Positions 19,270 through 23,785 of a DNA stretch of 64,000 nucleotides are shown piece by piece (the stretch's first letter is position 1; each line of letters opens with the position of its first letter). The DNA is taken from the NCBI RefSeq assembly GCF_001730525.1, contig NZ_MDFN01000001.1, positions 186,001 through 250,000 on the forward strand. Direction: 5' to 3'. The notes under the pieces were generated by a model. That model was not told the origin of the DNA. It was given only the letters and a program-made list of their open reading frames with translations, and searched no databases. The stretch is from Arcticibacter eurypsychrophilus (lineage in GTDB: Bacteria; Bacteroidota; Bacteroidia; Sphingobacteriales; Sphingobacteriaceae). Both the position numbers and the translations under genes were made by a program.

Positions 19270-19479
19270 GCATGTGATCATAAATGCGTGTAAAAATTAA
19301 TTTGAGTAGTTTTTGAGGTACTAAACTACACACCGTGGTGATGTTCTACATATTTATTTTACACCAAACTCCCTTAAGCATTCATAACTAGTGTTTTGAC
19401 TATATTTCTCACAATGGCACGGAATTGCTACAAATGTTTATATCAATAATTGAATAATTTAATTCTAAAACGATATATC

Positions 19480-19704
19480 ATGAAAAAATTAATGTTCGCA
19501 GCCTCTTTATTGGCATTTGCAGGAATTACAACTTTGACAGCAACTAGTCACCCAGTTAAATATACTACTACTCAAGTTGCACAGGACACCACAACTGTTC
19601 CTACTGATACTACGAGTACACCAGCAACTACGCCTACGGATACTACAGCTGCACCGACAGATACTACAGCTGTACCGACTGACACTACAAAGGTTGGTCA
19701 ATAA
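19480..19704 (+). CDS. small secreted TDTT-repeat protein
   Basis: A 74-residue protein from the ATG at 19480, preferred to the upstream TTG because MKKLMFAASLLAFAGITTLTATS is a standard signal peptide. The mature part is almost only threonine, aspartate, proline and alanine, with five TDTT-type units (PTDTTSTP, PTDTTAAP, PTDTTAVP and so on). It is likely exported and unstructured. It is a single-gene unit with its own terminator. I know of similar short PT-rich exported peptides in Pedobacter but of no function. Confidence 0.7.
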   Translation: MKKLMFAASLLAFAGITTLTATSHPVKYTTTQVAQDTTTVPTDTTSTPATTPTDTTAAPTDTTAVPTDTTKVGQ

Positions 19705-21108: not shown

Positions 21109-22053
21109 ATGGATTTGAAGCTAGGAGAATTTGTTCGGTTTGTAGACGAAAAAATGGAAGGTTATATCACCCGTATCATCAGTGAAGATATGATTGGGGT
21201 AACAGGAGAAGATGACTTTGAAATCCCGGTACCGGTTGCAAAGGTAACGCGGGTACATGGGCATAAATATGCGGATTCTCCCGAAGAAGTAACGCCTGCA
21301 GCCGAAGTATATACAGGACCATTTGAGACGAAGGGGATTTATGTTGCCGTGGTACCCGATCAGAATAAAGGATCAGTGGTTCACTTTAACCTGGTGAATG
21401 AGACCTCCTTTCAACTTTTGACTACACTGGTTACAGAGAAGGCAGGTTTATCAAAAGGCGAATATGCCGGTATGATCAATCCCCATTCCTCAACTGATAT
21501 CTATTCCGCTAACCTGGCAGACCTGAGTGTATGGCCTGCATTTACGGTAGAGATCCTATACTTCTCAAAACTGAATAGCAGTATCCCTGCTGCGCTACGG
21601 TTTACAGAGCGCTTTAAAGGAAAGGATTTTGCAGGAACAAAGAAGAGGGTAGCTCTTTTAAATAAGGATGCCTGGACATTCCGTTTGGATGAAGAAGATA
21701 TTATTATCGATGCAGAGAAGCTGAAGGAAAGTTTTTTTAAGCCAACAGAAGAAAAGAAGACAGTAGAGAAACCGGCAAATGAAATTGATCTGCATATCGA
21801 AAAATTGCGGGATGATTTTGCGCTTTTAAGCAAGACCGAGATTCTTAAGATCCAAATGGAGCATTATCAGAAGGCTTTGGATGCCGCAATTGTACACAAG
21901 CTGCATTCGGTGATTTTTATACACGGTGTTGGCAATGGCACTCTGAAAATAGAAATCCACAAAACCCTTGGACGCAATAAACAGGTGAAGACCTTTATGG
22001 ATGCCCGCAAAGAAAAATTCGGGTACGGAGCTACAGAGATATTTTTAAAATAG
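21109..22053 (+). CDS. DUF2027 and Smr/MutS2 domain protein
   Basis: A 314-residue protein. The N-terminal part starts as a small beta domain (KLGEFVRFVDEKMEGYITRI, MutS2/KOW-like), a DUF2027-type beta sandwich fills the middle, and the C-terminus from about residue 225 is an Smr domain: EIDLHIEKL (the xDLHG-type motif, here DLHIE) and FIHGVGNGTLKIEIHK (the HGxG block). Smr domains are nucleases or nucleic-acid binders acting on branched DNA or stalled mRNA-ribosome complexes. A proline/lysine-rich linker (KKTVEKPANE) precedes Smr. The kinase-like gene follows after 20 bases. Confidence 0.85.
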   Translation: MDLKLGEFVRFVDEKMEGYITRIISEDMIGVTGEDDFEIPVPVAKVTRVHGHKYADSPEEVTPAAEVYTGPFETKGIYVAVVPDQNKGSVVHFNLVNETSFQLLTTLVTEKAGLSKGEYAGMINPHSSTDIYSANLADLSVWPAFTVEILYFSKLNSSIPAALRFTERFKGKDFAGTKKRVALLNKDAWTFRLDEEDIIIDAEKLKESFFKPTEEKKTVEKPANEIDLHIEKLRDDFALLSKTEILKIQMEHYQKALDAAIVHKLHSVIFIHGVGNGTLKIEIHKTLGRNKQVKTFMDARKEKFGYGATEIFLK

Positions 22054-22073: not shown

Positions 22074-23120
22074 ATGCCGGATTACGAAACCAGAGCAGAC
22101 GTACCTTCAAAGAAAAAGTTCTGTTACCAAATTACTGAACCCTTAAGGGAATATTTAGTCAAGTATAACAGGGAGGTAAAACTTCCTGTGCAGTATGCCG
22201 ATTTGTTGCGCTTTCAATTCAGCACTCCTTTATTAGATAAGGCAGGAAATGACACCCTCTGGCAAACGGTGTATTATGATCAGTCGGAAATGGGGGACCT
22301 CTTCCCGAACCTGAATTATATTTATGCGTTGATGAATGCAGACGGGGATATGCAGGTAATGGAACATCTGCACATTGCGCAAATAGACTATTGTACGTTC
22401 GGAAACTCCAAACCTTTCCGGATCAGAGTAATCAATAGGTTCAATGATAACTACGATTACTTCTACGTGAAGGTGGCAGACGCTTCCAGAGTGTACGGAA
22501 TTGAGCTGGAACACATTCTATCCCCTAATCGAATCACGTACCTTACAGACAACAATACGCTTATTGAGGAGCATATCTCCGGACTTCCGGGTGATGTATT
22601 CATTCAGCAGCGTACGAATACCTCTAAATTTAACCAGATCCGTATTTGCAAGGAGTTTGTTAAATTCAATGAACGTTGTTTTATCCGTCTGCTTGGCGAT
22701 ATGCGGTCCTATAATTACGTAGTTCATATTACCCCGGATATTGAGGGGAATCAATACCGGATCCGTGCGATTGACTTTGATCAGCAATCTTATGAAGGGC
22801 GCAGAAACTTTTATCTGCCACAGTATTTCAAAGAAAACAACAAGCTTGTCCAGTTGGGAATTCAGCATATGGATAAAACAACCATGCGGCAATACCAGGA
22901 AGAAGAGCGAAGCTTAATCAATGGCCGTATGAAACTAGTGAACTACCGGCTTAGGGATATACTGAATGTAATGAAGAAACATGAGATCTCCCCAAGGGAA
23001 AAAGTGGTTCAATTACGCAACGAATTATGGGAATATCATAAGAAAGGTTCCTTCTTAAATTGCAACACAATGGGAGAATTAGTGGAAGAACAACTCATAG
23101 TATTCTTCGAAAAAAAGTAA
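22074..23120 (+). CDS. unrecognised protein with protein-kinase/APH-like motifs, 348 aa
   Basis: I do not recognise this 348-residue protein by name. It has no signal peptide or membrane segment. Read against the kinase fold it shows a possible beta-3 lysine in YFYVKVAD (K133), a helix-C-like glutamate in GIELEHIL (E144/E146), a hinge-like LIEEHISGLPG (164-172), a catalytic-loop-like LLGDMRSYN (D209 and N214 spaced as in HGDxxxxN of aminoglycoside phosphotransferases) and a metal-binding-loop-like AIDFDQQ (D234). The order and spacing are right for an APH/choline-kinase-type fold; a glycine-rich loop is not obvious. It starts 20 bases after the DUF2027/Smr gene and is probably co-transcribed. 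The fold is my inference; activity is unknown. Confidence 0.75.
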   Translation: MPDYETRADVPSKKKFCYQITEPLREYLVKYNREVKLPVQYADLLRFQFSTPLLDKAGNDTLWQTVYYDQSEMGDLFPNLNYIYALMNADGDMQVMEHLHIAQIDYCTFGNSKPFRIRVINRFNDNYDYFYVKVADASRVYGIELEHILSPNRITYLTDNNTLIEEHISGLPGDVFIQQRTNTSKFNQIRICKEFVKFNERCFIRLLGDMRSYNYVVHITPDIEGNQYRIRAIDFDQQSYEGRRNFYLPQYFKENNKLVQLGIQHMDKTTMRQYQEEERSLINGRMKLVNYRLRDILNVMKKHEISPREKVVQLRNELWEYHKKGSFLNCNTMGELVEEQLIVFFEKK

Positions 23121-23359: not shown

Positions 23360-23785
23360 ATGAAAGCTTTTAAATCTATACTCGCCACATTATTATTATT
23401 ATCCTTAATTATCACTTCTGGTTATGCTAAAGTTGACAAAGAGTCTCTTACTATGGACTATGCCATTAAGACTTACATAGGTGCTGTATCTCAAGGAAAA
23501 ATTAAAGGAATAGAAGATATATTAGATCGCAATGTTAAGTTTACTCTTGCACAGGGAAGTAAGGTAATCAACTATAACAGAGCCGAAATGATCAGCTCTT
23601 TGAAAGTATCAGAAAACATTAACCAAAACTGCAAGACAGATTACTCCATTATAGAAAAAGGAGATGCTCAGTCTATCGTTAAAGTAACTATGACTTACGA
23701 AAACTTTTCAAAAGTGAACTATGTCACTATTTCAAATACAGATGAAGGATGGAAAATCACTAACGTATCAAGTGTATTCAACTAA
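23360..23785 (+). CDS. exported NTF2-like (putative lumazine-binding type) protein
   Basis: A 141-residue protein with a signal peptide (MKAFKSILATLLLLSLIITSGYA) and a mature domain of about 118 residues. Features of the NTF2-like fold are the N-terminal helix DYAIKTYIGAVSQGKIKGIEDIL, the NVKFTLAQGSKVINYNRAEMI strand-helix region and the closing DEGWKITNVSSVF strand. Such small exported proteins are frequent and mostly unstudied in Bacteroidota. It is monocistronic, with its own -7 element and a strong terminator. Confidence 0.75.
   Translation: MKAFKSILATLLLLSLIITSGYAKVDKESLTMDYAIKTYIGAVSQGKIKGIEDILDRNVKFTLAQGSKVINYNRAEMISSLKVSENINQNCKTDYSIIEKGDAQSIVKVTMTYENFSKVNYVTISNTDEGWKITNVSSVFN

Follow-up and report, generated by a model that had tools for sequence, protein, structure and literature searches.

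A 348-residue protein encoded in the stretch of Arcticibacter eurypsychrophilus DNA that we analysed (64,000 nucleotides, hereafter the window) is predicted to be an atypical kinase with a complete set of catalytic residues, placed in the protein-kinase-like (PKL) superfamily. Its architecture would be PI3/PI4-kinase-like and its substrate is probably soluble, and we consider this explanation, taken as a whole, to be quite likely. Judging from the conserved residues and the structural models, the protein is best read as belonging to a new family within the superfamily.

The gene is an open reading frame of 348 codons with an ATG start at 22074-23120 on the plus strand, in agreement with the product length given in the original prediction. 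That prediction had also named K133, E144, E146, the string LIEEHISGLPG at residues 163-173, GDMRSYN with D209 and N214, and IDFDQ with D234 as kinase-like elements, and all of them are found where it had placed them. The features of the gene and of its upstream neighbour are as follows.

22074..23120, plus strand: kinase-like protein of 348 aa (open reading frame, model, and 130 distinct homologues including itself)
22368..22475, plus strand: predicted N-lobe strands, residues 99-107, 115-121 and 126-134 (DSSP on the AlphaFold2 model)
22467..22475, plus strand: V132-K133-V134, end of the strand 126-134; K133 invariant in 130/130
22470-22472, plus strand: codon of K133, the candidate ATP-binding lysine, invariant in 130/130
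22479..22520, plus strand: helix-C region, residues 136-149, with D136, R139, E144 and E146 (helix 137-149 in the model; all four residues invariant)
22560..22592, plus strand: hinge-like LIEEHISGLPG, residues 163-173 (strand 162-166 and the turn preceding helix 173-180)
22695..22715, plus strand: catalytic-type loop G208-D209-M-R-S-Y-N214 (G208, D209, M210 and N214 invariant)
22770..22784, plus strand: metal-binding-type loop I233-D234-F-D236-Q237 (D234, F235, D236 and Q237 invariant)
21109..22053, plus strand: upstream gene with an Smr domain (PF01713, E 1.2e-10)

The window gene showed a dN/dS of 0.03 against its nearest homologue (L005), and in three further homologues of the same genus the synonymous sites were saturated relative to it. 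The reading frame is a genuine gene under strong purifying selection.

Homologues were collected from three sources: relatives (29 of 60 genomes positive, the own genome counted), named genomes (the best 80 of at least 588 confirmed stretches), and a draw across the phylum, in which 80 of 296 Bacteroidota genomes were positive (own genome counted, and one with broken fragments only) and 30 loci were fetched. The pooled set contained 130 distinct sequences, the window protein counted, with pairwise identities as low as 40%. K133, D136, R139, E144, E146, D209, N214, D234 and D236 are identical in all 130 of them. Invariance of K133, D209, N214 and D234 had been proposed as a check on the kinase reading; none of the four changes in any homologue, and D209 and D234 thus do not vary freely. 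The six residues picked beforehand from the single sequence (K133, E144, E146, D209, N214 and D234) are all invariant, while 47 of the 348 positions are invariant over the 130 distinct homologues. The picks were made without an alignment, and their agreement is more than coincidence: the probability of such an outcome is about 5e-6, rising to about 1e-4 once residue type is taken into account.

In PMC1821047, the key residues of the PKL superfamily include an ATP-binding Lys, a helix-C Glu, a catalytic Asp, an Asn five residues later and a metal Asp; the other five correspond to G52, P104, H158, H164 and D220 of PKA. The first five occur in this order in our protein as K133, E144 or E146, D209, N214 and D234, invariant in 130/130. 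In the structural model of the window protein (model 1, below) K133 lies at a strand end, E144 and E146 in the next helix, and D209 and D234 in loops. The residues D136 and R139 form with K133 a PIK-like K-x2-D-x2-R pattern, and E165 and H167 are invariant in the hinge-like segment. A loop GNSxPFR between the N-lobe strands of the model would sit where a phosphate-binding loop is expected, and its N111, P114 and R116 are invariant in alignments A1 (28 members) and A2.

Based on these residues, the protein would act as an ATP-Mg phosphotransferase. K133 would grip the phosphates of ATP, D209 would position or activate the acceptor hydroxyl, and N214 and D234, perhaps together with D236, would bind Mg. 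The residue two positions after D209 occupies the place of the His found in PI3/PI4 kinases, HipA and APH-type kinases. This position (211) is Arg in 102/130 and His in 28/130 homologues. The sequences with His, which carry GDMHxxN, comprise L138, L139, L140, L142 and 24 other rows, and many of their genera (Algoriphagus, Cyclobacterium, Roseivirga) we take to be Cytophagales. Among them, L138, L139, L140 and L142 belong to one family outside the window's class and have LLGDMHAGNFV at the catalytic-type loop; HipA_C proteins and PI3/PI4 kinases share this D-x-H-x2-N form.

Two AlphaFold2 models were compared. Model 1, of the window protein with 55 homologues in the alignment, had a mean pLDDT of 90.0 and a pTM of 0.87. 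At the start, helices and strands form an N-lobe extension, followed by the strands 99-107, 115-121 and 126-134 (K133 near the end of the last) and by the helix 137-149 that holds E144 and E146. Strands 156-159 and 162-166, the hinge and the helices 173-180 and 185-205 make up the middle. The D209-N214 loop comes next, then the strand pair 215-221 and 226-232 with the D234 loop after it, and a helical C-lobe ends the chain. Model 2, of the homologue from Hymenobacter telluris (L062), had a pLDDT of 87.5 and a pTM of 0.86, with nearly the same order of elements. The two models are not independent because most alignment rows are common to both. The two-lobed kinase fold by which the PKL superfamily is defined is present in the predicted models.

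In Foldseek searches of the PDB at E <= 0.001, all 17 matches of model 1 were kinases or kinase-fold domains, pseudokinases included, and 13 of the 14 matches of model 2 were kinase folds by title; the title of the remaining one, 8g66_C ('Structure with SJ3149'), does not specify the molecule. TM-scores by query length were low, the best listed being those of VPS34 (0.38 for model 1 and 0.43 for model 2). When ranked by E-value, ordinary protein kinases and pseudokinases, not PIKs, led for both models. A search against viral models gave 12 matches at E <= 0.001, of which 10 were named kinases, 1 was uncharacterised and 1 was a nidovirus replicase polyprotein.

The 1000 best Foldseek chains were then re-aligned with VIA-align, a non-exhaustive search in which 983 chains (model 1) and 991 chains (model 2) could be aligned. 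All 50 listed rows for each model (the best 50 of 983 and of 991) were PI3K, PI4K or PIKK structures, with Z of 13.1-11.3 for model 1 and 12.8-10.5 for model 2. VPS34 matched model 1 with Z 13.1 over 273 residues (rmsd 4.4) and model 2 with Z 12.8 over 268 residues (rmsd 4.3), and PI4K-beta matched model 1 with Z 12.7 over 260 residues (rmsd 4.1). The structural match spans residues 21-348 of model 1 and 10-330 of model 2 and includes the N-lobe extension; both predicted models thus have a PIK-type fold with this extension among the best 50 rows listed. The kinase-like fold of the original prediction is therefore backed by the predicted fold of two models and by the invariant residues, and a fold unrelated to kinases was not what Foldseek and the structural re-alignment listed. 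The original prediction had suggested APH, choline kinase, HipA and Fam20 as fold candidates; a kinase-type fold was obtained, with PI3K, PI4K and PIKK structures as the nearest listed instead. No HipA, APH or Fam20 entry was among the best 50 of the 983 and 991 re-aligned rows, which are too few to exclude these types.

A kinase fold that binds ATP without phosphorylating a substrate, either as a pseudokinase scaffold or as an AMP-transferring enzyme like SelO (which has a kinase fold), would account for some of these observations. The pseudokinase domains of JAK2 and TYK2 are among the best Foldseek matches of the window model, DFD stands in place of DFG, and the 102/130 homologues with Arg at position 211 have no His two residues after the catalytic-type Asp. 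On the other hand, the Lys, the catalytic-type Asp, the Asn and the metal-type Asp are kept in 130/130 homologues, and such invariance of all four is unusual for a pseudokinase. We regard this explanation as unlikely and favour a catalytically complete kinase.

Sequence searches gave the family no name. The best Pfam match had E 0.044 and the best NCBIfam match E 0.011, the lowest of any library; in both libraries the matches were scattered and nothing came near a cut-off. Among the NCBIfam matches, the FomB phosphonate kinase model hit 1 of 56 members (E 0.021). PHROGs matches were likewise scattered (best E 0.035), PADLOC gave four families with one member of 56 each (best E 0.025), and two sequence searches of the PDB returned no kinase, the matches being a mitochondrial ribosomal protein (E 0.25) and a C2H2-type protein (E 0.048). 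PF00454 had no match to the window protein at E up to 10, nor did any of the 28 A1 sequences match it at E up to 1, and a search of 148 genomes of the phylum gave no match either. The HipA_C (PF07804) and APH (PF01636) models likewise matched neither the window protein nor the A1 members; the three APH matches of the own genome are all at other loci. By these searches, the protein belongs to a conserved Bacteroidota family that is unnamed by Pfam, NCBIfam, PHROGs, PADLOC and PDB sequence searches. Our literature search found no paper about the family by title or by the start of the abstract, and one may exist beyond the terms searched; a study of Bacteroidetes signature proteins (PMC1887533) may include a member.

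Profile-profile kinship with PIK, HipA, APH, Pkinase and CotH was tried and rejected: the hhalign scores lay within the spread of 23 control families, and some of the controls scored higher. Against the PIK profile, built from only four sequences, D209, N214 and D234 were in register with a score below several controls, and against APH the loop alone was aligned, at noise level. As sequence methods link the family to no kinase family, the kinase reading rests on the predicted fold and the invariant motif. In fold and residues the protein resembles a kinase, and membership in a named family is without sequence support.

The PI3/PI4 kinases (VPS34, PI4K-beta, p110 and the PIKKs; PF00454) are the best listed structural matches of both models over nearly the whole chain, N-lobe included. 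The family also has the K-x2-D-x2-R and D-x4-N spacing of VPS34, p110-gamma and PI4K-beta as well as an IDF loop, whereas mTOR has Glu at K+3. PI3/PI4 kinases are characterised by a DRHxxN catalytic loop and DFG, both present in the four PIK segments compared. In the Bacteroidota family, in contrast, DMR or DMH (GDM[RH]xxN) stands in place of DRH and DFD in place of DFG. The spacing also differs: from the Lys to D209 there are 76 residues against 107-151 in the four PIKs (at least 31 shorter), and from D209 to D234 there are 25 against 18-19 (6-7 longer). No PF00454 match was found and hhalign was not significant. Since a match to the PF00454 model, DRH and DFG were looked for and not found, we do not count the protein among the PI3/PI4 kinases.

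Two other kinase groups resemble the family in part. HipA-type kinases (PF07804) are bacterial, and their D-x-H-x2-N loop occurs in part of the family; on the other side, their Pfam model gave no match, no partner gene is conserved and the hhalign score was not significant. APH/choline kinase-like enzymes (PF01636) carry HGDxHxxN, and the family shares with them an ID loop of the metal type as well as a G-D-x-[RH]-x2-N loop, but no Pfam match was obtained and hhalign aligned nothing beyond the loop, at noise level.

The gene occurs in about a quarter of the Bacteroidota genomes drawn. Of the 80 carriers, 78 have a single match, G145 holds a second copy, and G301 carries two fragments side by side. 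These fragments, at G301:C1:3158145-3158407, contain internal stop codons and apparently represent a decayed copy. In the single-contig genomes G012, G021 and G033 the gene lies on that contig of 3.9-4.4 Mb. In a 56-row tree, the rows from Sphingobacteriaceae, Chitinophagaceae, Hymenobacteraceae and Saprospiraceae cluster largely by family, with the window gene among the Sphingobacteriaceae; some deep forks are unresolved and the Mucilaginibacter-labelled rows are split. The longest end branch (1.65) belongs to L104, a row labelled Opitutales (Verrucomicrobiota), for which mis-binning and transfer are both possible. No relative was found in plasmid, phage and viral-contig collections. Neither did the loci reveal a fixed operon partner: the commonest neighbour family, class II aldolase-like by its sequence, was present in 11 of 79 loci (L108 of the 80 was not placed). 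The picture is that of a stand-alone gene passed on largely by vertical descent, and not one expected of a module for toxin-antitoxin, defence or resistance functions. A mobile or defence role was rejected, there being no plasmid, phage or viral-contig relative and only scattered PADLOC matches.

These data bear on whether the protein could be a toxin of the HipA kind or a resistance kinase of the APH kind. The D-x-H-x2-N loop of 28/130 homologues resembles that of HipA_C proteins of the relatives, and the order of residues fits APH. Against both stand the missing HipA_C and APH matches in Pfam, the empty plasmid, phage and viral collections and a gene tree that largely follows bacterial families; for HipA, moreover, no conserved neighbour could serve as an antitoxin. 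We find this explanation barely plausible.

The original prediction had also paired the kinase with the upstream gene, which it called DUF2027/Smr. The Smr assignment holds, whereas DUF2027 had no Pfam match at E up to 10. The Smr stop and the kinase-like start are 20 bases apart on the same strand, as it had said. We searched the loci for relatives of the window's Smr protein (E 1e-5, so that a strongly diverged Smr gene could escape) in flanks reaching at most 6 kb, a number of them shortened by contig ends. A relative of the window's Smr was present in 0/80 named loci (the best 80 of at least 588), and the nearest relatives outside the genus (L008 and L033, 81% identical) are without an adjoining Smr gene. 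Adjacency, with the Smr gene upstream, was seen only in five genomes of the window's genus, its own among them, and these are all the carriers of the kinase-like gene from that genus in our set. The short gap and this consistency within the genus would suit a functional pair acting on ribosomes or DNA, an idea to which the survey leaves scarcely any credence. The Smr gene is not part of a conserved system because the adjacency was unseen outside the genus; a kinase-Smr system was rejected on this ground, and the neighbour is merely a local arrangement.

A phosphoinositide or inositol-lipid kinase is suggested by the nearest folds, VPS34 and PI4K-beta being among the nearest listed structures. 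Inositol lipids are produced by some Bacteroidetes (PMC9246714), and a match to inositol-phosphate synthase (PF01658) is present in the genome from which the window comes. We tallied PF01658 and the kinase-like gene over two draws of 296 genomes, presumed to be the same set: PF01658 was present in 49/296 genomes and overlapped with the kinase-like gene in 14, against 13.2 expected (Fisher P 0.86), leaving 66 of the 80 carriers without it. Moreover, the fold group of the listed structural matches also holds the protein kinases mTOR, Tel1 and SMG1. As there is no co-occurrence with PF01658 over the 296 genomes, a phosphoinositide role is not favoured and the inositol-lipid kinase, very unlikely in our view, was set aside; carriers might also take up inositol.

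Instead of phosphatidylinositol, the predicted kinase would act on a soluble housekeeping protein or a small molecule encoded or made elsewhere. A soluble housekeeping substrate appears most likely because inheritance follows the bacterial families and no operon partner is fixed; the want of a partner gene and of any sign of mobility, together with a fold group that includes protein kinases, likewise points to a soluble protein or small molecule. The reading frame, the invariant residues, the predicted fold, the distribution and the missing conserved neighbour are computed results, from which ATP binding, catalysis, the roles of single residues and the solubility and class of the substrate are inferred. 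More tentatively, and with less than even confidence, the family might be a largely vertically inherited bacterial branch of the PI3/PI4-kinase-type fold. Found in several orders and in at least two classes of Bacteroidota, it would comprise soluble regulatory kinases that phosphorylate a protein or metabolite, and would be a compact relative of VPS34 and the PIKKs.

The gene is thus a mostly single-copy one that the libraries searched leave unnamed. If active, its product adds to the Bacteroidota, whose kinase signalling is in our judgement little charted, an atypical kinase nearest in shape to the eukaryotic PI3/PI4 kinases, and the compact protein would offer a biochemical test case for a PI3/PI4-kinase-like fold.

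Two further reading frames of the window were noted. Downstream of the kinase-like gene, at a distance of about 240 bases, 23360-23785 (plus strand) encodes 141 aa with a start that is signal-like by eye, and its product matches PF12893 (Lumazine_bd_2) at E 0.00022, with 22.4 bits just over the cut-off of 22.1. An 84-aa reading frame at 19450-19704 (plus strand) also has a signal-like start by eye and carries TDTT/PTDTT repeats in its C-terminal half.
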